Positions 36,477-48,777 of a stretch of DNA of 64,000 bases are shown piece after piece. The notes beneath the pieces are model-generated. The model did not search any database. It was not told the origin of the DNA and worked only from the letters and a program-made list of their open reading frames with translations. Each line of letters opens with the position of its first letter. Positions within the stretch are counted from its first letter, which is position 1. The stretch comes from Chitinophagales bacterium (GTDB lineage Bacteria; Bacteroidota; Bacteroidia; Chitinophagales; LD1), in assembly GCA_016786765.1 (NCBI GenBank), contig JAEUUZ010000059.1:124001-188000 (forward strand), read 5' to 3'. The translations under genes were made by a program, and so were the position numbers.

Positions 36477-37001
36477 ATGAATCAGGCAACAGTAGATGCA
36501 TACATTGCAAACCAAGAAATACAAGCACAACAATTTATTAAGCGGATAAAAAATCCGTTTTTGTTTCGCTTGTTTATGTTGATCAAATTGCCCATGGCTT
36601 TTTTGGCATCGGTGAAAGTGAAAGAAGTGAATGCTGATGTTTGTGAGATTTCAGTGCCATTTCGTTGGTTGAATCAAAATCCGTTTGGCTCTACTTATTT
36701 TGCGGTATTAGCCATGGCTGCTGAAATGAGCAGTGGAATGATTGCCTTGATGTACACACAAAATGCAAAACCATCTATTGCCATGTTGGTCACTAATCTT
36801 GACGCAAGCTTTATTAAGAAAGCTACTGGTGTAACTACGTTTAAATGCGAGAGTGGTAAAGCTATTCGTGAAGCCATTCAACAATCGGTGTTAACAGGAG
36901 AAGGTAGAACGATTACTTGTAAAGCTATTGGCTATTCTAAGACAGGGGAAATAGAAGCCGAATTCAATGTAACCTGGTCGTTTAAGGCAAGAACGAAATA
37001 A
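36477..37001 (+). CDS. DUF4442 hotdog-fold protein
   Basis: A 174-aa protein resembling DUF4442, a hotdog-fold thioesterase-like group. Features: a predicted helix with FLFRLFMLIKLPMAFLASVKV, the strand CEISVPFRWLNQNPFGSTYF, a helix VLAMAAEMSSGMIALMY and strands ending FNVTWSFKART. ATG 36477 is chosen over an in-frame upstream ATG at 36444 that overlaps the preceding gene. Enzymatic activity is not shown for the family. Confidence 0.83.
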   Translation: MNQATVDAYIANQEIQAQQFIKRIKNPFLFRLFMLIKLPMAFLASVKVKEVNADVCEISVPFRWLNQNPFGSTYFAVLAMAAEMSSGMIALMYTQNAKPSIAMLVTNLDASFIKKATGVTTFKCESGKAIREAIQQSVLTGEGRTITCKAIGYSKTGEIEAEFNVTWSFKARTK

Positions 37002-37026
37002 TTTATTTTCATTTACCTCATTTTTG

Positions 37027-37103
37027 GGGCGTGTAACCGGCTGTCCGTTGCAATCTTTGTCCATAGGAATGGTCAAAGGATTTTCACTGCCATCCGGCAC
37101 GCG
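37027..37103. repeat. Intergenic repeat, copy 1
   Basis: This block is repeated in inverted orientation at 48482-48561. The best-matching core is 47 bases (37043-37089) with only four mismatches, ending in GGATTTTCACTGC here and GGATTTCCACTGC there. It starts 25 bp after the DUF4442 gene stop. No ORF uses it and it does not fold as a tRNA. Confidence 0.75.
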
Positions 37104-37341
37104 GCTTGGTGAATGGGTTCGATATTTAGTAGTCGATACAAAGAAGTGTGTTATTAACTATTTTATCTGTCTCAATCTAAATGTATTACTTTGATAAAGT
37201 CGGATTTAGAAGGCACAAGAACGAGTATAAATACCTGATAAACGCGTATTTATTGTGCTGAATTAGCTCTAATGTAATTTACCTTTGACAAAGTGAAAAT
37301 TCTGAATAAATAGTTCATTTTATAAAAATTAACCTACAAAT
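37104..37341. promoter_or_regulatory. Upstream region of the 37342 operon
   Basis: The 238 bp before the operon hold two operator-like palindromes, ACTTTGATAAAGT (37188-37200) and CTTTGACAAAG (37283-37293, perfect around a central A), and between them a perfect 8-bp inverted repeat ATAAATAC/GTATTTAT (37227-37253). The second palindrome overlaps TACCTTTG (37280-37287), which fits the Bacteroidota -7 consensus. Operators and promoter are inferred from sequence only. Confidence 0.45.
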
Positions 37342-37800
37342 ATGGAAGCCCTAATAATAGCCGAAGACCCAAATAGAACGATTGTGAAATTTTCGGAAGA
37401 CTATAGTATAAAACAGTCATTATTTGAGCAAGGAGTTTCATTAACTATAGATGTATTTTGTTCCAAAATTATTCAACCTGCTCATAGTGCCACTTTATAT
37501 GGAGGTACTCCTTCCCCAAGATATCTCATAAAACCAGCACGAGAATTGATTTCTGATATTAAATTGAACATTACAGCAAAGGAGTTGAAAGGCTGTCGCT
37601 TAACTTTTGTATCCAGTATAACAAAAATAGATGTGGAGGGGATATTGTTAACGGATGATGAATTGAATAACGATATTTTGTTAACTGTCAAGTATCTTTT
37701 AAAGGCAGGTGAAGATATAATCGCAGATTTTGATGTTAAAGGAAAGTATCCTAGACAAGTAATAGAATCTTTTCGTACTACCCTAAAATTTAAATCATGA
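37342..37800 (+). CDS. Protein of unknown function, operon gene 1
   Basis: A 152-aa protein with no signal peptide or membrane segment. The first half contains FCSKIIQPAHSATLYGGTPSPRYLIKP and the second is a predicted beta-rich region with KLNITAKELKGCRLTFVSSITKIDVEGILLTDDELNND. I recognise no family. The stop overlaps the next gene's ATG by four bases (ATGA), which shows translational coupling with the exported protein that follows. Confidence 0.72.
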   Translation: MEALIIAEDPNRTIVKFSEDYSIKQSLFEQGVSLTIDVFCSKIIQPAHSATLYGGTPSPRYLIKPARELISDIKLNITAKELKGCRLTFVSSITKIDVEGILLTDDELNNDILLTVKYLLKAGEDIIADFDVKGKYPRQVIESFRTTLKFKS

Positions 37801-39074
37801 AAAATCTAGCACTTTGTTTTTTTACATTATATCTAAATTTTTTTGCAATGGGTCAAACCATTGATCAAATGCGTACACCTCTCTCTCCAGCATACACCAT
37901 TTTAGATCAGACTCCAACAACAATTGAGCGACCATCATCTGTCCAAGCGCTAAGTACAAATATTCAAAGCGCTTTTGCAAATGGGAAATTTAAGCCTGGT
38001 ATTGGTCTAGAGTTGACCCCATTTTGGATGATGCTAAAAAAGAACTACACCATCACAGAGTATCTTTCTGCCGATCCGAAAGGAAGAAAAGATTATGGTA
38101 AACTTCTATTGCAACATCTCTCTTTTTCCGCTGCTACTTCTTCTTCAGACACTTTTTCCGTTGGAAGTATTACACCTGGTTTGGGGATATCATATGGCGT
38201 ACGAGCATTGATATGGCCTGGCAATATTTCGAAAAGAACTTTAGCCAAAATTGAAGCGATAAACACAACTGTAAAAGGCAATAGTTATTTAAATGTTGAG
38301 TTAGAAAACGTTCTATCGGATATTGAAAGTGAAGACGAACAAACACTTAATGCCGAAAGGTTGAAAAGTATATTAAGTAATAGACTTCATGTTGAATTCT
38401 CAAAAAGCGAAGAAGATATATTAAGAGAAATTGATAAAAGGGGCTCATCAGCATTTGAGAAAAATAAAGGTTATTGCTATGATTTTGTGAACGAATACAT
38501 TAAGACAAAACTTCCCCTATTTGTAAAGGATGCAGTTGCTTTATCCAAAGAGTTATCGAGTGCTAGGGAGGGATTTATGTGGGAGGTAGCTACTGCAGGT
38601 TTAACTGTTTTTCAAGAAAATAAGTTTAGTAAGTCTTATTTTGCAAAGGCTCAAGTTTGGACTACTTTATCCTATAGAATTTTATCTGATGATGAGAATC
38701 TGAAAAAGAGCGTGGACATTATGATGCTTTTCCGTGGGACATTTAATGATCGTTCAATCGATTCATCCCATTATTTCGATATTGCCGGGAAAATTCAATG
38801 GAATAATAATAGTTGGGATTTAAGTGTTGAAGGAGCTATGCGATTTGCAACAAGACCAACCACAATCCCTGACGTAAATGGGAAAATACCTAAAAACTAC
38901 ACTTATCGTTTAGTCGCAAATTTCAACTACAAGATTAATAATGTTATTGGTCTAAACGTCTCATTTGGCAAATCTTTTGATGGTATTTCAACTGAATTTG
39001 ATAAAAAAAAGGAGCAATCTATTCTAGCATCTGGTGGGCTTAATGTGGGAATTGGAAAACTTAATACAAAATAA
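37797..39074 (+). CDS. Exported beta-rich (possible outer-membrane) protein, operon gene 2
   Basis: A 425-aa protein with signal peptide (cleavage near GQ, residue 20). It has alternating amphipathic stretches typical of an outer-membrane barrel: FKPGIGLELTPFWMML, HLSFSAATSSSDTFSVGSITPGLGISYGVRALIW, FNYKINNVIGLNVSFGKSF. A helical middle section of about 120 residues (EDEQTLNAERLKSILSN to LPLFVKDAVAL) interrupts it. The end, GGLNVGIGKLNTK, lacks the terminal Phe usual for Bacteroidota barrels. No homology recognised. Confidence 0.7.
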   Translation: MKNLALCFFTLYLNFFAMGQTIDQMRTPLSPAYTILDQTPTTIERPSSVQALSTNIQSAFANGKFKPGIGLELTPFWMMLKKNYTITEYLSADPKGRKDYGKLLLQHLSFSAATSSSDTFSVGSITPGLGISYGVRALIWPGNISKRTLAKIEAINTTVKGNSYLNVELENVLSDIESEDEQTLNAERLKSILSNRLHVEFSKSEEDILREIDKRGSSAFEKNKGYCYDFVNEYIKTKLPLFVKDAVALSKELSSAREGFMWEVATAGLTVFQENKFSKSYFAKAQVWTTLSYRILSDDENLKKSVDIMMLFRGTFNDRSIDSSHYFDIAGKIQWNNNSWDLSVEGAMRFATRPTTIPDVNGKIPKNYTYRLVANFNYKINNVIGLNVSFGKSFDGISTEFDKKKEQSILASGGLNVGIGKLNTK

Positions 39075-39084
39075 GTTTTCTCAC

Positions 39085-39112
39085 TTTGGTTGGTGTTCCG
39101 CCACCAACCAAA
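39085..39112. repeat. Perfect 11-bp hairpin repeat, possible terminator
   Basis: TTTGGTTGGTG (39085-39095) pairs perfectly with CACCAACCAAA (39102-39112) across a 6-base loop, 10 bp after the preceding gene. A related but imperfect copy stands at 48352-48400. No T run follows, so rho-independent termination is possible but weak. Confidence 0.6.
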
Positions 39113-39264
39113 ACTATCAGTGGCAAAATTTACTTGTTTACAATCTGCAAACAGAACAAGCAACAGATAAAGGTAATTCAACCCCATAAGACTTGAATGG
39201 TCGAGGATTTAATTTCTAGAAATAGTATTATTCGAAATATTGCTAAACATTCTAAACTATTTAT

Positions 39265-39357
39265 ATGCTTTTACTTGTACTTCTTTCTTTTTTGAATAGC
39301 TCTTTTAAGCTGTCGCTTACAATTGGTATTGTTTTTACTTTGGGAGCAGTAGCATGA
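39265..39357 (+). other. N-terminal fragment upstream of an in-frame stop
   Basis: A 30-codon frame, ATG 39265 to TGA 39355-39357, encodes MLLLVLLSFLNSSF followed by a hydrophobic stretch ending FTLGAVA. It is in the same frame as, and directly abuts, the next gene at 39358. Together they would make a two-helix membrane protein, so this is probably the original N-terminus cut off by a nonsense codon. Confidence 0.55.
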
Positions 39358-40089
39358 GTGTTTTTTATTTACCGTATCTTAAAAGATAAAGAAATAGATG
39401 ATGCACGTGCAGACAAATTTATTGAGTTAGGGAAATGGCTGTTTGTATCCGTTGCCATGGTGCTTGGCGCAGCTGTAATTAGTGATAGTTTCAAAGAACG
39501 CGATCAAGATGTTAAAGAAATGGCACTTTTTGAAAAATATGCGACCACTTTCTCAACCCTCGAAGGTTTTGATGTAAAATGGAACATGTGTGAATACTTC
39601 GCTGCAGTTGCACCTGAGGGACAGTTAAGAGAGTCTTGGGGGAAATATAAAGAGGTGTTAAACCCATATTTTAAGAGTTACACGAATAATAAAATGGTAG
39701 TAGGTGTATTGGAAGACAAAAAGATTAAAACGACTTCTGAAATAATGGTGCTAAAAAAAATCCAAGCAGATATTGCTTCTTTAGATAAACCCTTTGTTAT
39801 TAGTGAAGCGTCAATGAATGAATACTTGATTATTATATCAAACGATGAAAGTTTAGCAGGGGCAACTGATGAATTTAATAAAGTAAAGGCTAATTCGAAA
39901 GCTTGCATTATCAAACAAAATGAAAATTCGTTCATCACCATTTTTGACCGTTACAGGACACAGGCAGAGGCTTTGGATGCACTTTCTGCTGCTAAAAAAG
40001 TTAATGCAGGAGCTTATATTATGGAGCTCAATAGGCTATGTAGTAAAGGGATATTGCCTTCTACAGATTGTATGATTTGTAATAACTAG
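39358..40089 (+). CDS. Membrane-anchored protein of unknown function, maybe N-terminally truncated
   Basis: A 243-aa protein from GTG 39358, directly after an in-frame TGA. It starts FFIYRILKDKEIDDARADKFIELG, has one membrane helix (residues about 25-42, WLFVSVAMVLGAAVI) and a soluble domain of about 195 residues ending in CSKGILPSTDCMICNN. Segments CIIKQNENSFITIFDRYRTQ and ALDALSAAKKVNAGAYIMEL recall a SPOR fold (peptidoglycan-binding), a low-confidence reading. If the TGA is read through or is a sequencing error, a first helix ending GAVA would precede it. Confidence 0.6.
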   Translation: MFFIYRILKDKEIDDARADKFIELGKWLFVSVAMVLGAAVISDSFKERDQDVKEMALFEKYATTFSTLEGFDVKWNMCEYFAAVAPEGQLRESWGKYKEVLNPYFKSYTNNKMVVGVLEDKKIKTTSEIMVLKKIQADIASLDKPFVISEASMNEYLIIISNDESLAGATDEFNKVKANSKACIIKQNENSFITIFDRYRTQAEALDALSAAKKVNAGAYIMELNRLCSKGILPSTDCMICNN

Positions 40090-40407
40090 TTTAAACTTGA
40101 ACGCTGTCTGTAATCTGATTATAGGTAAGTTATAAATGTAGTATTGACTTTCTTCAATTCATTACTTCTCTCTTTCTAGTTCGTTTTTAAAGTTTTTTCG
40201 AATGCTATATCACCTATACAAATATTTCAAAATGGCAGTCGTGTGTATAACAAGCATACAATTTAAGTTCCTTTCGAAATATAATGTATACAGTTGTAGG
40301 TTATCCTAAATTATACGCTCTAGCTAGAGACTATGTGTTTCAAGTTTTTTAGTTTAAAAACTTTTTCGTTACATTGTTATCAAACAAAAAAAAATCAAAT
40401 TTAGTTC
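40090..40407. other. 318-bp AT-rich intergenic region
   Basis: No ORF, RNA gene or clear promoter consensus was found. The only structure noted is a short palindrome TCTAGCTAGA near 40319 and stretches of poly-A before the next start. It separates the unknown operon from the SRPBCC gene. Confidence 0.5.
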
Positions 40408-40863
40408 ATGCAACTCCTTCCGCTCACACCCGATTGCACCATTATTTCTTCACGCATTCTTGATGCACATGTTGATTTGGTTTACCGTGCTTTTGAAGAC
40501 CCCGAGCATTTGAAAAACTGGTGGGGTCCACATGGCTTTACAAATACCTTTAACGACTTCGATTTACAAGTGGGTGGCCAATGGAACTTAATTATGCATG
40601 GCCCTGATGGCGCAAACTATACTAACGAAAGTGTTTTCTTGATCGTTGATAAACCGCACCGAGTGGCTTGGTATCGCTTAACAAATCCGCTCTTTCACAT
40701 GCTCATCACTTTTGATGAATTACAAGAGCACAAAACAAAAGTTACCTTCTATATGATTTTCGAAACAGCAAAAGAATGTGAGGCGATTCGATACTATGTT
40801 GTAGATAAAAACGAAGAGAATTTTGATCGATTAGAAGAAGAACTCAAAAAGATGACAATTTAA
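40408..40863 (+). CDS. SRPBCC / AHSA1-like START-fold protein
   Basis: A 151-aa protein of the Activator-of-Hsp90-ATPase-1-like SRPBCC group: RILDAHVDLVYRAFEDPEHLKNWWGPHGF, DFDLQVGGQWNLIMHGPDG and PHRVAWYRLTNPLFHMLITFDEL. These proteins have a hydrophobic ligand cavity; the ligand is unknown. The next gene begins 18 bp later, and SRPBCC and YdeI-like genes are often neighbours. Confidence 0.9.
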   Translation: MQLLPLTPDCTIISSRILDAHVDLVYRAFEDPEHLKNWWGPHGFTNTFNDFDLQVGGQWNLIMHGPDGANYTNESVFLIVDKPHRVAWYRLTNPLFHMLITFDELQEHKTKVTFYMIFETAKECEAIRYYVVDKNEENFDRLEEELKKMTI

Positions 40864-40881
40864 TCGTATCTCCACAATAGC

Positions 40882-41439
40882 ATGACACCTACTTTTTTCG
40901 CAACACAAGAAGCCTTCCGTACATGGTTGAAGAAACACCACAACACTGAAACAGAGTTACTGGTGGGTTTCTATAAAATAGGCAGCCATAAACCTTCTAT
41001 CACTTGGTCGCAATCTGTTGATCAAGCATTGTGCTTTGGTTGGATTGATGGTGTTCGCAAATCAGTAGACAGCGAAAGTTATTGCATTCGTTTTACGCCT
41101 CGCAAAGCCGTTAGCATTTGGAGCGCCATCAATATTAAAAAAGTTGAAGATCTAACGGCACAAGGTTTGATGCAACCTGCAGGCTTTAAAGCGTTTAGTT
41201 TACGAAAGGAAAGTAAGTCGCGCATTTACTCACACGAAAATGAAACGGCTGCACTAACACCTGAAATGGAGCAGCAATTTAAAGCAAACACAAATGCTTG
41301 GGAATTCTTTCAAGCGCAAGCACCATCCTACAAGAAATTAGCTCTGCATTGGCTGATAAGTGCAGAGCAAGAGAAAACAAAGTCTAAGCGACTCTTAAAG
41401 TTAATCGAGTTTAGTCAAGATGGCAAAAGGCTTTTGTAA
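40882..41439 (+). CDS. YdeI/OmpD-associated family protein
   Basis: A 185-aa protein of the YdeI/OmdA family, marked by FRTWLKKHHNTETELLVGFYKIGSHKPSITW, the QALCFGWIDGVRKSVD core and RFTPRKAVSIWSAINIKKVEDL. Family members have been linked to antimicrobial-peptide resistance in enteric bacteria, but the molecular role is unclear. It is likely co-transcribed with the SRPBCC gene upstream. Confidence 0.88.
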   Translation: MTPTFFATQEAFRTWLKKHHNTETELLVGFYKIGSHKPSITWSQSVDQALCFGWIDGVRKSVDSESYCIRFTPRKAVSIWSAINIKKVEDLTAQGLMQPAGFKAFSLRKESKSRIYSHENETAALTPEMEQQFKANTNAWEFFQAQAPSYKKLALHWLISAEQEKTKSKRLLKLIEFSQDGKRLL

Positions 41440-41485
41440 TGTCTTACCATTTTAGTACTTGTGTTTTTCATCAAGTGCTTAAATT

Positions 41486-41548
41486 TGTAGAGTGGCTTTC
41501 CATTCTTAATCGTTTGAATTTGCTATAGTTTTCGGTATGTAGAGTGGC
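41486..41548. repeat. 11-bp direct repeats upstream of the GlxA-like gene
   Basis: TGTAGAGTGGC occurs at 41486-41496 and again at 41538-41548, 52 bp apart, which is about five DNA turns. They lie just upstream of the promoter at 41565-41609. AraC-family proteins often bind two direct half-sites in this arrangement, so these could be operator half-sites. Confidence 0.5.
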
Positions 41549-41564
41549 CGAAAATGTCTTTTTG

Positions 41565-41609
41565 TTGTCTTAACGGATTCATTAATTGTACTTAGATTTG
41601 TTCAACAAA
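41565..41609 (+). promoter_or_regulatory. Promoter with palindromic operator, copy 1
   Basis: TTGTC (41565-41569), a 23-bp spacer, then TAGATTTG (41593-41600, fits TAnnTTTG). The -7 box overlaps a perfect 13-bp palindrome TTTGTTCAACAAA (41597-41609). The gene starts at 41615. The same arrangement with the same 23-bp spacer occurs at 45666-45710. Shared regulation is inferred from this identity. Confidence 0.6.
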
Positions 41610-41614
41610 AAATT

Positions 41615-42532
41615 ATGGCGACACGATTTGTATTTTTACTCTTACCGCAGCTTCACATATTAGATTTGGCAGGTCCGGATCAAGCATTACATGAGGCAAT
41701 GGATTATGGTGCGGATTTTTCAATCGAATATTGCGGGATTAATGAATCTATAGTATCTACAAGTGGTTTGCCTTTCGGGGAAGTGCAACATTTTACAAAA
41801 GTCAAATTGAAGAAAGGCGATTTTCTGGTAATTCCAGGTTCTGATTTTACGTACCTGATTTCTCCAAAGTTCCTCGCAAAGAAAGATTTGTTTCAATGGA
41901 TTGGAACAAATTATACAAAGGGCGTTAATATTTGCAGCATTTGTATTGGTGCTTTCGTGTTGGCCGAAACCGGATTATTAAATGGCTTATCGTGTACAAC
42001 TCATTTTAAAAAAACAAAGGAGCTACAAAAGCGTTATCCTAAACTAAAGGTAATTGAAAATATTCTATTCACCGATCATAACGGTATATATACAAGCGCT
42101 GGGATTGCATCGGGGATTGACTTAATGTTGCACATCATTGAGAAACTAAAGGGGAGTTACTTTGCCTACAAAGTTGCCAGAGAATTAGTGGTTTACAACC
42201 GCAGAGCCGGACATTTAGCCCAAGAAAGTGAGATGTTGAAATTTAGAAATCACATACATTCTGGTGTTCATAAAGTGCAAGATTTCATTATTGAAAATAT
42301 ACACCGGAAAATAAGCATGAGCGATTTAGCGAATATCGCCAACATGAGCGAGCGTAATTTTACACGAGTATTTAAAAAGGAAACGAATATAACCGTTAAC
42401 GATTTTGTAACCATTATTCGGAAAGAGAAAAGTATGGATTTACTTAAGAATCCGGATTTGTCAAAGCGCGAAATAGCCAACAAAGTTGGTCTTCAAAGTG
42501 AAAAGCAATTAGCCCGAATTCTCAACAAATAA
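41615..42532 (+). CDS. GlxA-family transcriptional regulator (DJ-1/PfpI-AraC)
   Basis: A 305-aa regulator. N-terminal DJ-1/PfpI-like domain (about 1-195) with the nucleophile elbow SICIGAFVLAETGLL; C-terminal AraC-type HTH (about 220-305) with DLANIANMSERNFTRVFKKETN and KREIANKVGLQSEKQLARIL. GlxA-type regulators usually control genes linked to small-metabolite or stress responses. It sits three bases before the M1-like gene, and the promoter ahead of it carries a 13-bp palindrome (see 41565-41609), so autoregulation and control of the neighbour are plausible. Confidence 0.9.
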   Translation: MATRFVFLLLPQLHILDLAGPDQALHEAMDYGADFSIEYCGINESIVSTSGLPFGEVQHFTKVKLKKGDFLVIPGSDFTYLISPKFLAKKDLFQWIGTNYTKGVNICSICIGAFVLAETGLLNGLSCTTHFKKTKELQKRYPKLKVIENILFTDHNGIYTSAGIASGIDLMLHIIEKLKGSYFAYKVARELVVYNRRAGHLAQESEMLKFRNHIHSGVHKVQDFIIENIHRKISMSDLANIANMSERNFTRVFKKETNITVNDFVTIIRKEKSMDLLKNPDLSKREIANKVGLQSEKQLARILNK

Positions 42533-42535
42533 CAC

Positions 42536-45070
42536 ATGAAATCAATTTTGCTTTCGTGTATTTTCTATCTATTAATTGCTGATTCAATGATAGCGCAAAC
42601 AATCGATACAAAACATATTTTGATACACTTAACCTTCGATTGGCAACAACGTCTGGCCGATGGATTTGTGGAGATAACTCTTTCACCTACTCAAGAAACG
42701 AATACGATTTGCTTAGATGCCGGAATGTTGAATATAAAGTCGGTTTTCCTTAACAATAAATTGTTATCGTTTAGTTATGATGGTAGCGATACTAAAGACA
42801 ACCTTCTCATTCAACTGGATAAAACCTATCAAACAAACGAATCATTAGTTTTAAAAATAAATTATACTACTACTTATGAGAATCGGTCTGACCCGAATGC
42901 AATTTGGGGGAGTTTTGGCAAAGGCTTGCGATTCCAAGGTCCAACAGCAACATCACCTTCTAAAAGGAGGCAGATATGGAGCAGTGGAGAACCAGAAGGC
43001 AATAAATACTGGTTCCCATGTCATGAGGCAATAGAGGATATTCACACTACAGAGGTAATAGCGACAGTTGAAAAGCCATTGATGGTCATTAGCAATGGTA
43101 CACTTCACCCAGTAACGGATAATGGTAATAACACCCGAACTTTTCATTATACTTCGGATACTCCATTCCCTAATTATCTGGTAGCAATTGTAGTTGGAGA
43201 ATATGATGATGTAATGCTACAATCGAATACTACAACTATTCACAATTATGGATATCCACACGAGCGTGATGCAGTAAAAGCTACAACTGAACTGCTTCCC
43301 AGTATGTTGCAATTTTTGGAACAGAAAACGAATTATACATATCCCTTCAAACAATATTCGCAGGTAGTTGTGCAAGATTACCCTTTCCCCGGTTTAGTAG
43401 GGCAACATTCTGTTTCAATTTTGTCGGATAACTATATTGATGATTATGGTGTGCATAAAGATTTTAAATATTTATGGGATGGAGTAGCTGTAGAAGCATT
43501 GGCCAGTCAGTGGTTTGGAAGTTTAATTATGCCAAAAAAGTGGGGCGATATTTGGTTGAGTAAGGCATTTGCCCAATATTTTGCCGGCCTTTTTACAGAA
43601 AAAGATAATGGCAGAACGGAGTATTTAAGTTATATACAGCCTTTTGAAAAAAGTAATGTGCTGAGTGAATGGGAGGCAGGAGTAATACACCCTACAGCTA
43701 TTAAGAATGCAGATCACAGATCTTCAGTTATACCTGAACAATATTCCAAATACAGAGGCGCTCTGATTTTGCGTATGCTGCAAAAAGAAATAGGAGAGGA
43801 GCATTGGTGGAAGGCTATACAGCTTTTTGTAAAAACAAGTGCATTTAAACAAGTGAGTACAAGTGATTTTCAAAAAACTATTGAGCAGGTTACAGGGAAA
43901 TCGTATCAATGGTTTTTCGATCAGTGGGTATATAAAATTGGATTACCACATTTTGAGGTTACTCAGCAGTATGATACAACACAAAAACAACTTATACTTA
44001 TTGTAAAACAACCAGAGAACGAGAAAAATGATAGTGCCTATGCGCAAGTAAAATTTTATACGGGTAAGCTTGATGTTGGAATCGAGAATGCAGTTCATAC
44101 AATACGTATTGAACCAAAAGCGGAGAACAGGTATGTTTTTTCATTATCAATTCCTCCAAAATTTATCCATTTTAATGTGGATGGGATATGGATTTGTAAG
44201 ACTGAATTTAAAAAATCATGCGATGAATATTTAATGCAGTTAAAATATTGTAACAGTGTTTTAGCAAAGCAAGAAGCGTTAGATCAGTTGGTAGAAATAG
44301 CCAATGATTCTGCCACTGCTAATGAGCTAAGGGAAAGAATAAAGACTGCCTTTTGTAACGAAATTCAATCTAAAACCTATTGGCGATATCGTGTATATGC
44401 TATAGGTAGTTTACGTAAGATTGTTGCAGCACCTTATAATGATGGAATTTGTTCAATGCTATTGGATATCATTAAAACAGAACATGCGTGGCTAAAAACT
44501 TCAGCTATTTTTAGTTTAGGAAATACTAAAGACGAAAAATATGTTGATGTGTATCTAGAGGCACTAAAAGATAGTAGCGATCGGGTGGTCAATGCTGCCG
44601 CTGTTGCATTAGGGAAAACAAAGTCTCATAGGGCGTATGCTGCTCTAATGGATTTAGAACATAAACCATCATGGAAAAATCAAAGTCGAATTAGTGCGCT
44701 GAATGGTTTGGAACAATTAGCGGATGATCGAGCAGCCACTTATGTATTAAATTGTATAAAAGATAATACCTCACCACGTTGGTTTTTGGCAACTCCGGTA
44801 TGGGATTACCCTTATGCTGCTGCAAATACTTTAGTAACTTTAAAAAAGGCTGATGAAGCTTTCCCTATTTTGTTTGAACGGTTTAAACAAGCATTGACCG
44901 ACAACGACATTAACGATATTTTTCAAAATGTTCAATTGATAGATATACTCAATGATAAAAGAGGTATAGAAGTATATCGTTTACTCAAGGAGAAATTTAA
45001 AATGGATACAGTAATCCTTGGCGCAGTTCAAAGTTACGAGCTACAGTATTTGGAACGAATGAAAGACTAG
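42536..45070 (+). CDS. M1 aminopeptidase homologue lacking zinc ligands (probable pseudoenzyme)
   Basis: An 844-aa exported protein with signal peptide (1-20), an M1-type N-terminal beta domain (WGSFGKGLRFQGP; EPEGNKYWFPCHEAIEDIHTTEV is a family phrase), a peptidase-like core and C-terminal HEAT-like repeats (about 650-810). In the core, HELAH is replaced by EALAS (320-324, followed by QWFGSLIMPKKWGDIW), and the third zinc ligand in WLNEGFA is Lys343 (WLSKAFA). The GAMEN motif is replaced by LVGQHSV. A working zinc site therefore seems absent. The fold match is strong; loss of catalysis is inferred. Confidence 0.83.
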   Translation: MKSILLSCIFYLLIADSMIAQTIDTKHILIHLTFDWQQRLADGFVEITLSPTQETNTICLDAGMLNIKSVFLNNKLLSFSYDGSDTKDNLLIQLDKTYQTNESLVLKINYTTTYENRSDPNAIWGSFGKGLRFQGPTATSPSKRRQIWSSGEPEGNKYWFPCHEAIEDIHTTEVIATVEKPLMVISNGTLHPVTDNGNNTRTFHYTSDTPFPNYLVAIVVGEYDDVMLQSNTTTIHNYGYPHERDAVKATTELLPSMLQFLEQKTNYTYPFKQYSQVVVQDYPFPGLVGQHSVSILSDNYIDDYGVHKDFKYLWDGVAVEALASQWFGSLIMPKKWGDIWLSKAFAQYFAGLFTEKDNGRTEYLSYIQPFEKSNVLSEWEAGVIHPTAIKNADHRSSVIPEQYSKYRGALILRMLQKEIGEEHWWKAIQLFVKTSAFKQVSTSDFQKTIEQVTGKSYQWFFDQWVYKIGLPHFEVTQQYDTTQKQLILIVKQPENEKNDSAYAQVKFYTGKLDVGIENAVHTIRIEPKAENRYVFSLSIPPKFIHFNVDGIWICKTEFKKSCDEYLMQLKYCNSVLAKQEALDQLVEIANDSATANELRERIKTAFCNEIQSKTYWRYRVYAIGSLRKIVAAPYNDGICSMLLDIIKTEHAWLKTSAIFSLGNTKDEKYVDVYLEALKDSSDRVVNAAAVALGKTKSHRAYAALMDLEHKPSWKNQSRISALNGLEQLADDRAATYVLNCIKDNTSPRWFLATPVWDYPYAAANTLVTLKKADEAFPILFERFKQALTDNDINDIFQNVQLIDILNDKRGIEVYRLLKEKFKMDTVILGAVQSYELQYLERMKD

Positions 45071-45129
45071 TATTATCTTTTTTTGTTATAGATAAATTGT
45101 TCCTCAGTCCACAATTCAAAAAGTAGTAT

Positions 45130-45591
45130 ATGTTTTCATCTTATTCTTCCAGGCCTATTCGTTTTATAAAAGTATTGCACCATCAAAATTGGAAGATTAA
45201 GCTATATAGCATTTCAGTAGAAAGTGCATTAGTTTCAGTCGATAACATCACCCTTGCCACAAGGTCTTTAGAGCAATGGCTCTCTAAATGTAACGTGTAT
45301 GCTCTCCCAACATATAATATAGCAACACTTATACTCCATGAGGGCAAAGAAGGATGTTTCGCTATTTTGAATTGGTGGCTTGATCAAAACATGACACAAA
45401 ACTATATTTACTTGAAGCGCCAACAGGAAAAAGTATTTGAGTTAGTTTCAGATCGAGGAATGTCGGTTTGTGTTTGGGAAATGGCTGTTCTTTGGCATGA
45501 ACGTAATGCATGGGTAAAACATGTGCTGATGCAACACGAACAGCCCAATTTTATTGGCTATCTAGCCGATCAATTGAATTGTGATATTTAA
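45130..45591 (+). CDS. Protein of unknown function
   Basis: A 153-aa soluble protein without signal peptide or membrane helix. It contains ALPTYNIATLILHEGKEGCFAILNWWLDQNMTQNYIYLKRQ and VCVWEMAVLWHERNAWVKHVLMQHEQPNF, which are rich in Trp and His. I recognise no family. It follows the M1-like gene by 59 bp on the same strand. Confidence 0.65.
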   Translation: MFSSYSSRPIRFIKVLHHQNWKIKLYSISVESALVSVDNITLATRSLEQWLSKCNVYALPTYNIATLILHEGKEGCFAILNWWLDQNMTQNYIYLKRQQEKVFELVSDRGMSVCVWEMAVLWHERNAWVKHVLMQHEQPNFIGYLADQLNCDI

Positions 45592-45622
45592 CAAGCGTTT
45601 ATTCCTCCAAACAAAATTTTAG

Positions 45623-45635
45623 AATAGATTCTATT
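45623..45635. promoter_or_regulatory. Perfect 13-bp palindrome
   Basis: AATAGATTCTATT reads AATAGA-T-TCTATT, a perfect 6+1+6 palindrome, 31 bp upstream of the TTGTC element of the promoter at 45666-45710. It may be a second operator for the lipoprotein gene. Confidence 0.35.
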
Positions 45636-45665
45636 GTAACTCTTTTGGCTATATATGTCGGATAG

Positions 45666-45710
45666 TTGTCCGTATGGTTTTAGTACTTCTCAATAGTTTT
45701 GTTCAACAAA
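45666..45710 (+). promoter_or_regulatory. Promoter with palindromic operator, copy 2
   Basis: TTGTC (45666-45670), a 23-bp spacer and TAGTTTTG (45694-45701, fits TAnnTTTG) overlapping the palindrome TTTGTTCAACAAA (45698-45710). It matches the GlxA-gene promoter in motif, spacing and palindrome. The lipoprotein gene starts at 45721. Confidence 0.6.
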
Positions 45711-45720
45711 AACAATAAGT

Positions 45721-46038
45721 ATGAAAAATTTAATCGTAGTTCTTTTTTTAATTTGTAGTGCTGCTTGTAGAAAGCCAGCTACAACGAATTGTTCTAATAC
45801 TATTGCCGGCACATTAAAGTACTCTCCTCAAAGTGGTTCATGCATGGATTGGTATATTGTTACGCCATCGGGATGGCTCATGCCTGCAAATCTTGAATCG
45901 TTTTTGGTAACACCCAAAGATAATCAACCCGTAAAGTTTTCATATGAGTATGCTGCAACTCCTTCGATGAATTTTGCTTGTAACATTGCCCCGCTCATTA
46001 CTATTACTTGCTTAGATTCAACGGTTACAATTCGCTGA
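45721..46038 (+). CDS. Small cysteine-rich lipoprotein
   Basis: A 105-aa lipoprotein: signal MKNLIVVLFLICSAAC with lipobox SAAC, then RKPATTNC and a short beta-rich domain with four further Cys (positions near 23, 41, 82, 93) that could form disulfides. No family recognised. Its promoter carries the palindrome described at 45666-45710, so it may belong to the same regulon as the GlxA-like regulator. Confidence 0.7.
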   Translation: MKNLIVVLFLICSAACRKPATTNCSNTIAGTLKYSPQSGSCMDWYIVTPSGWLMPANLESFLVTPKDNQPVKFSYEYAATPSMNFACNIAPLITITCLDSTVTIR

Positions 46039-46232
46039 TATTTTTCATCTTCTCATCGCTCGTGCCATTAGAAAAAGTTGAAGTAAGTTTATATAAATCT
46101 ATAGTTGGTATCCATACCAAACATAGACATTTTTCATGTTTAAGCGGATTGGTTATGGTGCTAATCACCTAAAAAAACGCTAAAATATTCTTAATAGTTT
46201 TTCATCTCCAAAGAAGTTCCGCAAATTCAACA

Positions 46233-47297
46233 ATGCGAATTTGTTTTGCTTTGTTTTTATTACTGCCTTGTTTTGGTATGGCACAACTTTCAACAAACAT
46301 CAATACACTCGATTTTGGCACCTTTAGTGTGGATTCCATCCCAATTAAAATCGTTGAACTCAAAATCACAAACATTACCACTAAAAGTATTCCTATCCAT
46401 ACACTAGAGTGTAATACTTTTCTTTTCAACCCTTCGCTTAACAGAGTTTCAGGCGAGGGTCCTATTCTGTTTCAGATGCCTGAGAAAAACATATTAGTAA
46501 AACCTAAACAAACACGCTCTGTTTTTTTTTATCCTGATAAGCATAGATTTCACACAATGGATGTGCATTACGACACTGCATCTTTGTTTAGTATTTGTTA
46601 CGGCAAAGACTATCAATTTAAAGAGATTCCAATTGTTTACAATGTAGTTCCGAATATACAATGGGAAACAAGTACGTTAAATCTAGGACGATGTAAACAA
46701 GGAGATGTGTTAAAGGCTGTCTTTCGATTTAAAAATACAACGGCCAATACCATTCATTGGGAGAACGGTTGGTTTAATGGAAATGGAATTGGGGATAGTG
46801 TGTTGTATCCTCGAATAGTTTTGCCGTATGCATCTGATAGTGTTGTTTTTAGAGTAAATACAACATACGAAGCAGATAGTATAATAAAGTCGTTTGAACT
46901 GCATCCTGCTTTTAATTTTGAAGATTCAAAGCTAGGAGATGATATGCCCTATCTCTTACATTATGTTTATGTTGTAGACAGTTTTCATTTTTTTGCTACC
47001 ATTGATTTTGAAGCCACAAGCATCAATACAATTGTGGATCATCTTGGACCCATTGATTTTACGTATGCGTTTAGCAATAAGGGGACAGCTCCTTTGCATA
47101 TTTATAGTTGTAAAGGTTCAAGCGGCAGTGTTGTTCCTATTTACCCACAACATCCTATTTTGTCCAACGAAAGTGCTGAGATTAAAGTGCATTATGATTG
47201 TAATTATGTTGGACCATTTACAAAAACAGTCGCCATTGTATCTAATGCTAGAAAGCATCCTTATAAAGTTTTGGTGTTGAGTGGAAGCGTGAAATAG
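46233..47297 (+). CDS. Exported DUF1573-like protein
   Basis: A 354-aa protein with signal peptide (cleavage near GMAQ, residue 18) and about three Ig-like DUF1573/ASH-type segments: NINTLDFGTFSVDSIPIKIVELKITN, ETSTLNLGRCKQGDVLKAVFRFKNT, and HLGPIDFTYAFSNKGTAPLHIYSCKGSSG. Such domains are common in exported Bacteroidota proteins; the role is unknown. Compared with the anchored DUF1573 protein at 15216-15731 it lacks the clean CGCT motif. It begins 194 bp after the lipoprotein stop; no promoter box recognised there. Confidence 0.75.
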   Translation: MRICFALFLLLPCFGMAQLSTNINTLDFGTFSVDSIPIKIVELKITNITTKSIPIHTLECNTFLFNPSLNRVSGEGPILFQMPEKNILVKPKQTRSVFFYPDKHRFHTMDVHYDTASLFSICYGKDYQFKEIPIVYNVVPNIQWETSTLNLGRCKQGDVLKAVFRFKNTTANTIHWENGWFNGNGIGDSVLYPRIVLPYASDSVVFRVNTTYEADSIIKSFELHPAFNFEDSKLGDDMPYLLHYVYVVDSFHFFATIDFEATSINTIVDHLGPIDFTYAFSNKGTAPLHIYSCKGSSGSVVPIYPQHPILSNESAEIKVHYDCNYVGPFTKTVAIVSNARKHPYKVLVLSGSVK

Positions 47298-47586
47298 TTG
47301 TGTTGGTATTTCACAAGAGGCGCATCTACACTTAACATGAATACAATTCCAATTGATTTGCTTAAAAGTGACATAAACGCATGGGAGCTAAAGTTCGCCT
47401 GCCACAGGCTATGCATAAAACTTGCGCTATCCTGTGCCCAATACAAACTCTGCAACAATTATGATTCTTCTTTTTGATTGGTATTGTTGATTAATTTGGG
47501 CAGGTTTGATTAGGCAATCAGTAACAGGAACAAAGTAATTGAGTTGTTGGTTGCATTTATATTGCTAACGAATCCAAAATACGAAG
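47298..47586. other. 289-bp intergenic region with a dyad
   Basis: No convincing ORF. A dyad CACAGG (47403-47408) and CCTGTG (47431-47436), extended inward by partly matching TA-GC bases, could form a hairpin with a loop of about 10 bases. It lies before the VIT1-like gene; function unknown. Confidence 0.4.
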
Positions 47587-48288
47587 ATGATAACACTAGA
47601 GAATTACTTAGATAACCATTATATACACCGAAGCAATTGGTTACGGGCATCTGTTTTGGATGCAAACGATGGAATAATATCCATTTCGAGTCTTGCCATT
47701 GGCGTTGCAGCAGCAAGTGTGACCCGTGAGCCTATTGTTTTGGCCACCGTTGCAGGGCTTGTAGCAGGGGCATTATCTATGGCAGCCGGAGAGTATGTTT
47801 CCGTTAGTTCTCAAACCGACACTGAAAAAGCCGATATAGAAAGAGAGAAAAAGGAACTCGAAGCAATGCAGGAGGAAGTGTTAAAAATATTAGCTCAAAT
47901 CTATGAGAAGCGTGGACTAAAAAAAGAGACGGCTCAACAAGTGGCGCTGGAATTAACGCAAAAGAATGCCCTAGAAACACACATGCACGATGAGCTAGGC
48001 GTAAACGAGATGAGTAAAGCCAATCCGATTCAAGCCTCATTGGCATCGGGGGCAGCATTCTCTGTTGGTGGGGTTTTGCCACTATTAGTTATCCTTTTTG
48101 CACCCGTAAAGGGCATGGAATATTGGCTCTATGGATTCACCATTGTATTCCTTGTCATATTAGGTGCCATTGCTGCAAAAACAGGCGGTTCAAGTATACC
48201 TAAAGCCGTTCTGCGCATTACGGTTTGGGGTAACATTGCTATGGGCTTATCGGCATTTGTGGGGTATATCTTTGGTGTTCGAGAGTAG
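47587..48288 (+). CDS. VIT1/CCC1-family metal transporter
   Basis: A 233-aa membrane protein of the vacuolar iron transporter (VIT1/CCC1) family. The N-terminus, SNWLRASVLDANDGIISISSLAIGVAAASV, and AGLVAGALSMAAGEYVSVSSQTDTE are typical; the middle soluble segment REKKELEAMQEEVLKILAQIYEKRGL corresponds to the metal-binding helices; and three C-terminal helices follow. Members move Fe(II) or Mn(II). Direction and metal in this organism are inferred. Confidence 0.93.
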   Translation: MITLENYLDNHYIHRSNWLRASVLDANDGIISISSLAIGVAAASVTREPIVLATVAGLVAGALSMAAGEYVSVSSQTDTEKADIEREKKELEAMQEEVLKILAQIYEKRGLKKETAQQVALELTQKNALETHMHDELGVNEMSKANPIQASLASGAAFSVGGVLPLLVILFAPVKGMEYWLYGFTIVFLVILGAIAAKTGGSSIPKAVLRITVWGNIAMGLSAFVGYIFGVRE

Positions 48289-48351
48289 TTGTAACGGCCT
48301 TCGATTGGAAGTCCAGTAAAAATGCCAATACTCGTCAAATTACTTCTACCC

Positions 48352-48400
48352 AATTAGATGGGGTTCGCCATCAACCGAAACTTTCATTGGTAAATGTAAA
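48352..48400. repeat. Hairpin-repeat copy 2
   Basis: This stretch resembles 39084-39133: the block GTTCGCCATCAACCGAAACT here matches TTCCGCCACCAACCAAAACT there, and ATTGG and GTAAA-like elements follow in the same order. Roughly 70% by eye. The GATGGnnTTCGCCATC part can form a hairpin. Confidence 0.45.
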
Positions 48401-48410
48401 ATGAAACACA

Positions 48411-48435
48411 GACTGCTTCGTTCCTCGCAGTGACG
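48411..48435. repeat. REP-like GACTGCTTCG element
   Basis: A 25-base sequence with inverted ACTGC (48412-48416) and GCAGT (48427-48431) around a CTTCGTTCCTC-like core and followed by GACG. Sequences of this type recur in bacterial intergenic regions. Function unknown. Confidence 0.55.
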
Positions 48436-48481
48436 TAATACTTATGCCTTTTTTGTGTTAATGCTGAATGGATACCCAATG

Positions 48482-48561
48482 CCCGCGTGCGTGATTGCAG
48501 TGGAAATCCTTTGGCCATTCCCATGGACAAAGATTGGAACGGAAAGCGCGGCATCACGCCC
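48482..48561. repeat. Intergenic repeat, copy 2 (inverted)
   Basis: The reverse complement matches copy 1 at 37027-37103, with a 47-base core carrying four mismatches. Both copies lie between genes. The ends CCCGCGTGCG and CATCACGCCC are GC-rich. Confidence 0.75.
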
Positions 48562-48573
48562 AATGCATTTGTC

Positions 48574-48673
48574 GATTTAAGATTTTATTATTTAAGATTT
48601 TTGGATTTGGAACTACCGTAAGCTTCATGTATGACTTCAAAATCTTAAATCAAAAATCGCTGAATCTTAAATA
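48574..48673. repeat. Nested AT-rich inverted repeats
   Basis: GATTTAAGATTTT (48574-48586) is perfectly complementary to AAAATCTTAAATC (48639-48651), and TATTTAAGATT (48589-48599) to AATCTTAAATA (48663-48673). Because both left arms contain TTTAAGATT, a nested hairpin can also form. Confidence 0.6.
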
Positions 48674-48777
48674 ATACACAATATCTACCTATCTGTTTAC
48701 GTTCTAAAGATTAGACAGCACCAACAACCTGTTGATACCTTGCCTATGCAATAGAACGCTTACCTACGTTGAAGTAA

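Follow-up and report, generated by a model that had tools for sequence, protein, structure and literature searches.

What does a bacterial M1 aminopeptidase homologue do when every zinc-binding residue has been replaced, and when its gene directly follows that of a GlxA-type regulator? M1 enzymes require an HExxH motif plus a downstream glutamate, and the pseudoenzymes known in this family, such as TAF2 and Tma108, are mostly eukaryotic. The gene in question lies in a 64,000-nt stretch, referred to here as the window, of Chitinophagales bacterium GCA_016786765.1 (contig JAEUUZ010000059.1, positions 124,001–188,000, forward strand; Table 1). The clade to which it belongs is likely a group of exported M1-family pseudo-aminopeptidases of Bacteroidota that has spread horizontally and whose scaffold has been reused for binding.

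Table 1. Features of the pseudo-M1 locus, in window coordinates; residue numbers are those of P0001.
Feature	Coordinates	Strand	Basis or remark
11.7-kb island holding the module	36993..48696		Absent at the orthologous site of a congener
Left repeat copy, inverted relative to the right copy	37040..37104	+	Repeat search
GlxA/FtrA-type regulator P0002, DJ-1/PfpI domain plus AraC helix-turn-helix, 305 aa	41615..42532	+	Profiles
Exported M1-family pseudo-aminopeptidase P0001, 844 aa	42536..45070	+	ORF, profiles and model
Probable cleavable signal peptide, residues 1–21, MKSILLSCIFYLLIADSMIAQ	42536..42598	+	Read from sequence
Former GAMEN position, now GLVGQ (286–290; GLVGQHS 286–292)	43391..43405	+	Alignment
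Clade signature N299-x2-D302-D303-x3-H307-x-D309-x2-Y312-L313-W314-D315	43430..43480	+	Alignment, 27/27 orthologues
Former HExxH, now EALAS (320–324), followed by QWFG (325–328)	43493..43519	+	Alignment
Former third zinc ligand (Glu), now Lys343	43562..43564	+	N/K/R/S across orthologues
HEAT-repeat domain, residues 561–844	44216..45067	+	Profile, model and conservation
153-aa protein (PIRF...CVWE...WHERNAW)	45130..45591	+	Module member in 17/28 loci
Right repeat copy, 88% complementary to the left (65 nt)	48483..48547	-	Repeat search

Fold and loss of the catalytic site

The reading frame of P0001 is uninterrupted over 844 codons, and the sequence features named in the original prediction were all recovered as described: EALAS in place of HExxH, the intact QWFG and W-x-DIWL phrases (the latter WGDIWL, residues 336–341), K343 within WLSKAFA and the replacement of GAMEN. 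The catalytic tyrosine, which that prediction had not mentioned, is lost as well, its SYxKG motif being replaced by YSKYRG. Four domains follow one another, namely an N-terminal beta domain, a thermolysin-like domain without zinc ligands, an Ig-like domain and a C-terminal HEAT domain, with Pfam matches to Peptidase_M1 (6.6e-23), Peptidase_M1_N (1.6e-14) and HEAT_2 (4.4e-11). The HEAT repeats that had been proposed were thereby confirmed, on P0001 and on its orthologues.

Structure modelling, suggested earlier as a check, gave a confident M1 fold: the AlphaFold2 model of P0001 has a pLDDT of 90.3 and a pTM of 0.88, and aligns with the complete M1 enzymes ERAP1 and IRAP at Z 31–34 (Foldseek, VIA-align). 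The N-terminus is probably of the export type, as suggested by its sequence, by a hydrophobic helix in the model and by the hydrophobic N-termini of the orthologues. Eight M1 matches were found in the window genome, and the other seven all retain HExxH.

Scanning the contig collection and 198, 395 and 395 whole genomes yielded 27 further distinct orthologues, full or partial and 38–61% identical, which with the window protein make 28 proteins of one architecture (PF01433 in 28/28, PF17900 in 26/28). Their hosts are Bacteroidota by genome, among them the isolate Chryseobacterium defluvii, save one metagenome-assembled genome. This exception, a contig labelled Alcanivoracaceae MAG BB32, is probably mis-binned Bacteroidota DNA because all remaining orthologues are Bacteroidota.

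The next relatives of the clade are active-looking M1 enzymes of Bacteroidota (sister group A2, e.g. L015 and L001), which share the four domains with C-terminal HEAT, the export signal and 27–30% identity, but keep GAMEN, HExxH-x18-E and the catalytic tyrosine. Among comparison M1 loci, HExxH plus WxG is kept in 47 of 48, the remaining one having HEIGH.

Residues at the site were counted in the 27 sequences extending across it, window protein included. HExxH is retained by none of them, and neither the first histidine, nor the catalytic glutamate, nor the third-ligand glutamate occurs in any (0/27). Position 320 is Q15 E7 N3 S1 Y1, position 321 is A24 S2 G1, position 324 is N13 S7 Q3 H2 T1 G1, and position 343 is N13 K11 R2 S1, never E; the clade has GLVGQ[HN] at the GAMEN place and SKxRG at that of the catalytic tyrosine. 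As to whether EALAS and K are conserved, the loss of the site holds across the clade, whereas the exact letters do not, the consensus being Q-A-L-A-N with N or K. The searches turned up no closer family with another known zinc site.

P0001 and its orthologues might still be aminopeptidases, acting through an unusual zinc site or with an external metal donor, as the intact QWFG and WLxxxF frames and the histidine at the second ligand position in 2/27 orthologues would allow. This is very improbable, given that the catalytic Glu, the first His, the third-ligand Glu, the GAMEN Glu and the catalytic Tyr are gone or replaced throughout the clade. At the level of sequence, the M1 fold is intact and the zinc site and catalytic machinery are gone, and M1 aminopeptidase activity has almost certainly been lost.

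Decay of a pseudogene would likewise remove a catalytic motif, but the conservation of the locus refutes both a pseudogene and a sequencing artefact, leaving them next to no weight. The frame is open in all orthologues, from independent assemblies and including the Chryseobacterium defluvii isolate, the operon is conserved, and dN/dS is about 0.1, within 0.09–0.15 (by Nei–Gojobori, 0.148 and 0.127 in two pairs of congeners and 0.087 in one other pair, the three that could be measured), which indicates that the pseudo-M1 genes are maintained. The sequence is thus no sequencing error, and the earlier inference of an inactive M1 scaffold that is not simply decaying is supported by the absence of the site in 27/27 orthologues, by purifying selection and by a confident four-domain model.

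Pseudo-M1 genes are rare and patchy, occurring in about 1.5% of genomes overall. They were found in 5/198 genomes of the first set, in 0/29 other genomes of the window genome's own family, and, with the window genome not counted, in 4/394 genomes of the class sample and 5/394 of the phylum sample, the carriers belonging to scattered families. Such a distribution is compatible with horizontal transfer as well as with repeated loss. Viral contigs held no orthologues, and plasmids held none either, just ordinary M1s at ≤26%.

A rebuilt segment and its possible function

Nine residues, N299, D302, D303, H307, D309, Y312, L313, W314 and D315, are invariant in 27/27 sequences. They lie just upstream of the former HExxH in a segment without counterpart in the active M1 relatives, which lack N-xx-DD-xxx-H-x-D-xx-YLWD. 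Mean column identity over residues 299–328 is 0.756, against 0.47–0.51 in the neighbouring domains and 0.36–0.51 in other regions. Since this residue set distinguishes the clade from active M1s, genomes annotated with an "M1 family metallopeptidase" at such loci can be corrected.

The HEAT domain is also unusually constrained, with a mean column identity of 0.458 in the pseudo-M1 clade versus 0.268 in the active sister group, where it is poorly conserved. The active enzymes are more conserved than the pseudo-M1 clade in their M1 domains (catalytic parts 0.57–0.63), while in the pseudo-M1 clade HEAT nearly equals the catalytic parts (0.50). The HEAT segments SDRVVNAAAVALGKT, PSWKNQSRISALNGL and RWFLATPVWDYPYAA rank among the best conserved of the protein. 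As read from the alignments, constraint has moved from catalysis to the N299–D315 segment plus the HEAT domain, and by analogy with known M1 structures the rebuilt pocket and the HEAT domain would face each other.

We favor a non-catalytic binding function for the pseudo-M1, which we infer to be probable. The protein would be located outside the cytoplasm, where its former substrate chamber may capture a peptide, a protein or a small ligand without catalysis. The DJ-1/AraC-type regulator encoded upstream probably controls expression: on detecting a small molecule it would activate the operon, whose small cytoplasmic enzymes may deal with the same compound or stress. Partner genes are also found without pseudo-M1, so the link to the small enzymes may reflect co-transfer rather than one pathway.

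The invariant D, D, H and D of the new segment could instead form a new metal or catalytic site. A re-tooled enzyme that lost its zinc site, gained an active or metal site from N299/D302/D303/H307/D309/Y312/D315 and performs a different chemistry would account for why nine invariant residues, of which five are acidic or His, crowd into 17 positions next to the former active site, and for the missing counterpart in active M1 relatives. We consider it unlikely: the segment matches no known metal or catalytic motif, and a ligand-binding or structural role would fit the invariance too. In the model, moreover, residues 304–330 form one long helix with the segment on and before it, so that the side chains may not converge. 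A related proposal, tentative and rather doubtful, is that the M1 scaffold swapped its zinc centre for the invariant site and became a different enzyme or a metal or ligand sensor outside the cytoplasm, in a mobile regulator-linked operon together with an undescribed family.

A clade of bacterial M1 pseudoenzymes under strong purifying selection, whose pocket has been rebuilt and whose operon is conserved, offers a tractable system.

Relation to TAF2 and Tma108

No description of the clade was found in a partial literature search; the two known M1 pseudoenzymes compared with it are eukaryotic. TAF2 is a scaffold and DNA-contacting subunit of TFIID (PMC6220335). It shares with the clade the M1 fold, the loss of zinc ligands (QSLAQ and K in human TAF2) and a HEAT-like C-terminal part, but is nuclear and eukaryotic and lacks the invariant segment. 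"TAF2-like pseudoenzyme style", the wording of the original prediction, proved a fair analogy, since among M1-type PDB entries TAF2 gives the best sequence match to P0001 as well as to the family profile.

A stronger reading would make the clade the bacterial sister of TAF2, which would then go back to a bacterial protein that had lost its activity beforehand. The family profile matches TAF2 at 8.6e-45 versus 1.2e-36 for the best active enzyme, and TAF2 falls outside the best 60 matches of the active sister profile. A motif-masked tree groups TAF2 with the clade at 99/98 support. Human TAF2 aligns with the model over 740 residues (Z 31.2) and shows a structure-based identity of 21%, the highest among the M1 chains listed (13–17% for the others), and the profile of the third, Ig-like domain of TAF2 (Pfam TAF2_3rd, PF25316) matches 2/28 members (best 7.3e-5) versus 0/10 active enzymes.

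Several observations weigh against this kinship, which we regard as quite improbable. Outside the catalytic core, support drops to 46 and 5, and the grouping breaks when one TAF2 is omitted. AU tests do not reject alternative positions for TAF2, which have higher likelihoods (p 0.66 and 0.73). The branches leading to TAF2 are long, and losing catalytic residues in common can draw lineages together in a tree. Against TAF2, certain active M1s of Bacteroidota also score nearly as high (85.6 against 92.4 bits). Given the out-of-core support, the unrejected alternatives and the near-equal active M1s, the resemblance may be convergence after the same constraints were lost, and kinship is not claimed. 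If true, the affinity would bear on the origin of a core transcription factor.

Yeast Tma108 is an M1 homologue proposed to act as a non-enzymatic holder of nascent chains (reviewed in PMC11266112). Its suggested reuse of the M1 substrate pocket for polypeptide binding resembles what may occur in the clade. Unlike the clade, it is tied to the yeast translation machinery and retains all active-site residues but one, whereas the clade has lost the whole set.

Operon, regulator and island

P0002 carries both domains of GlxA/FtrA-type regulators, DJ-1/PfpI (PF01965, 6e-17) and an AraC helix-turn-helix (HTH_AraC, 1.3e-10). Its best NCBIfam match is FtrA (3.9e-50), at 170.9 bits under the equivalog cut-off of 425 bits, so P0002 is not FtrA itself. 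Its stop codon ends at 42532 and the M1 ATG begins at 42536, leaving the predicted three bases between them. The predicted coupling to the regulator extends to 20 of 24 testable orthologous loci, with the regulator directly upstream of the pseudo-M1 in 14, elsewhere in the module in 6 and absent in 4. ATGA start/stop overlaps occur at several module junctions, e.g. between regulator and M1 in Chryseobacterium defluvii. Because the regulator is of a ligand-sensing type, its inducer may point to the ligand of the pseudo-M1. A second DJ-1/PfpI protein of about 194 aa, without a helix-turn-helix, is encoded near the pseudo-M1 in L076, L078 and L054.

The 153-aa protein downstream belongs to a family of about 153–155 aa for which neither Pfam nor NCBIfam nor the PDB yielded a sequence match. 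Invariant in its alignment (A3) are R8, K24, Y26, H70, W82, W83, C114-V-W-E117, E124-R125 and W128. Its model (pLDDT 93.9) has no PDB fold match at E < 0.001, which is no proof of a new fold. The family matches the pseudo-M1 in rarity: it occurs in 8/395 genomes, four of them shared with pseudo-M1 (Fisher p = 1e-6), and four of its loci are without pseudo-M1.

A DinB_2 protein is encoded in 16/28 loci and GNAT acetyltransferase and DUF1272 genes in several, in variable gene order (L050, L071 and L072). At or near the place of the pseudo-M1, three of the four 153-aa loci that lack it (L107, L108 and L109) encode an exported CBM9-DUF5916 protein with DinB, GNAT or DUF1272. Set alongside the pseudo-M1 loci, these suggest a module of one large exported protein plus small cytoplasmic enzymes. 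In L040, L043 and L054, an exported DUF4932 protein with HEYIH, possibly an active metalloprotease, is encoded downstream, near the pseudo-M1. A promoter scan around the operon gave 13 matches versus a shuffle mean of 17.2, no better than shuffles.

In a congener, the two genes that flank the island are adjacent, and window positions 36993 and 48696 map about 26 bp apart. The repeat, a copy of which lies a short way inside either island end, is about 76 bp long and has about 40 dispersed copies in the genome, mostly intergenic (L112–L141), so a chance copy at both ends is unlikely (on the order of 1e-5 by our estimate). A few other copies also form inverted pairs, about 1.2 kb apart, and the repeat folds weakly as DNA (z -1.7 and -0.2). 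No transposase was identified among the island ORFs profiled, and the module ends of other orthologous loci have nothing comparable but a 36-nt inverted pair in L071.

Within the island, AHSA1/SRPBCC and YdeI/OmdA-type genes lie directly upstream of the regulator (window 40408–41439). In Chryseobacterium defluvii, a tandem-like array of a ~123-bp repeat occurs upstream of the module (L041:699–1567).
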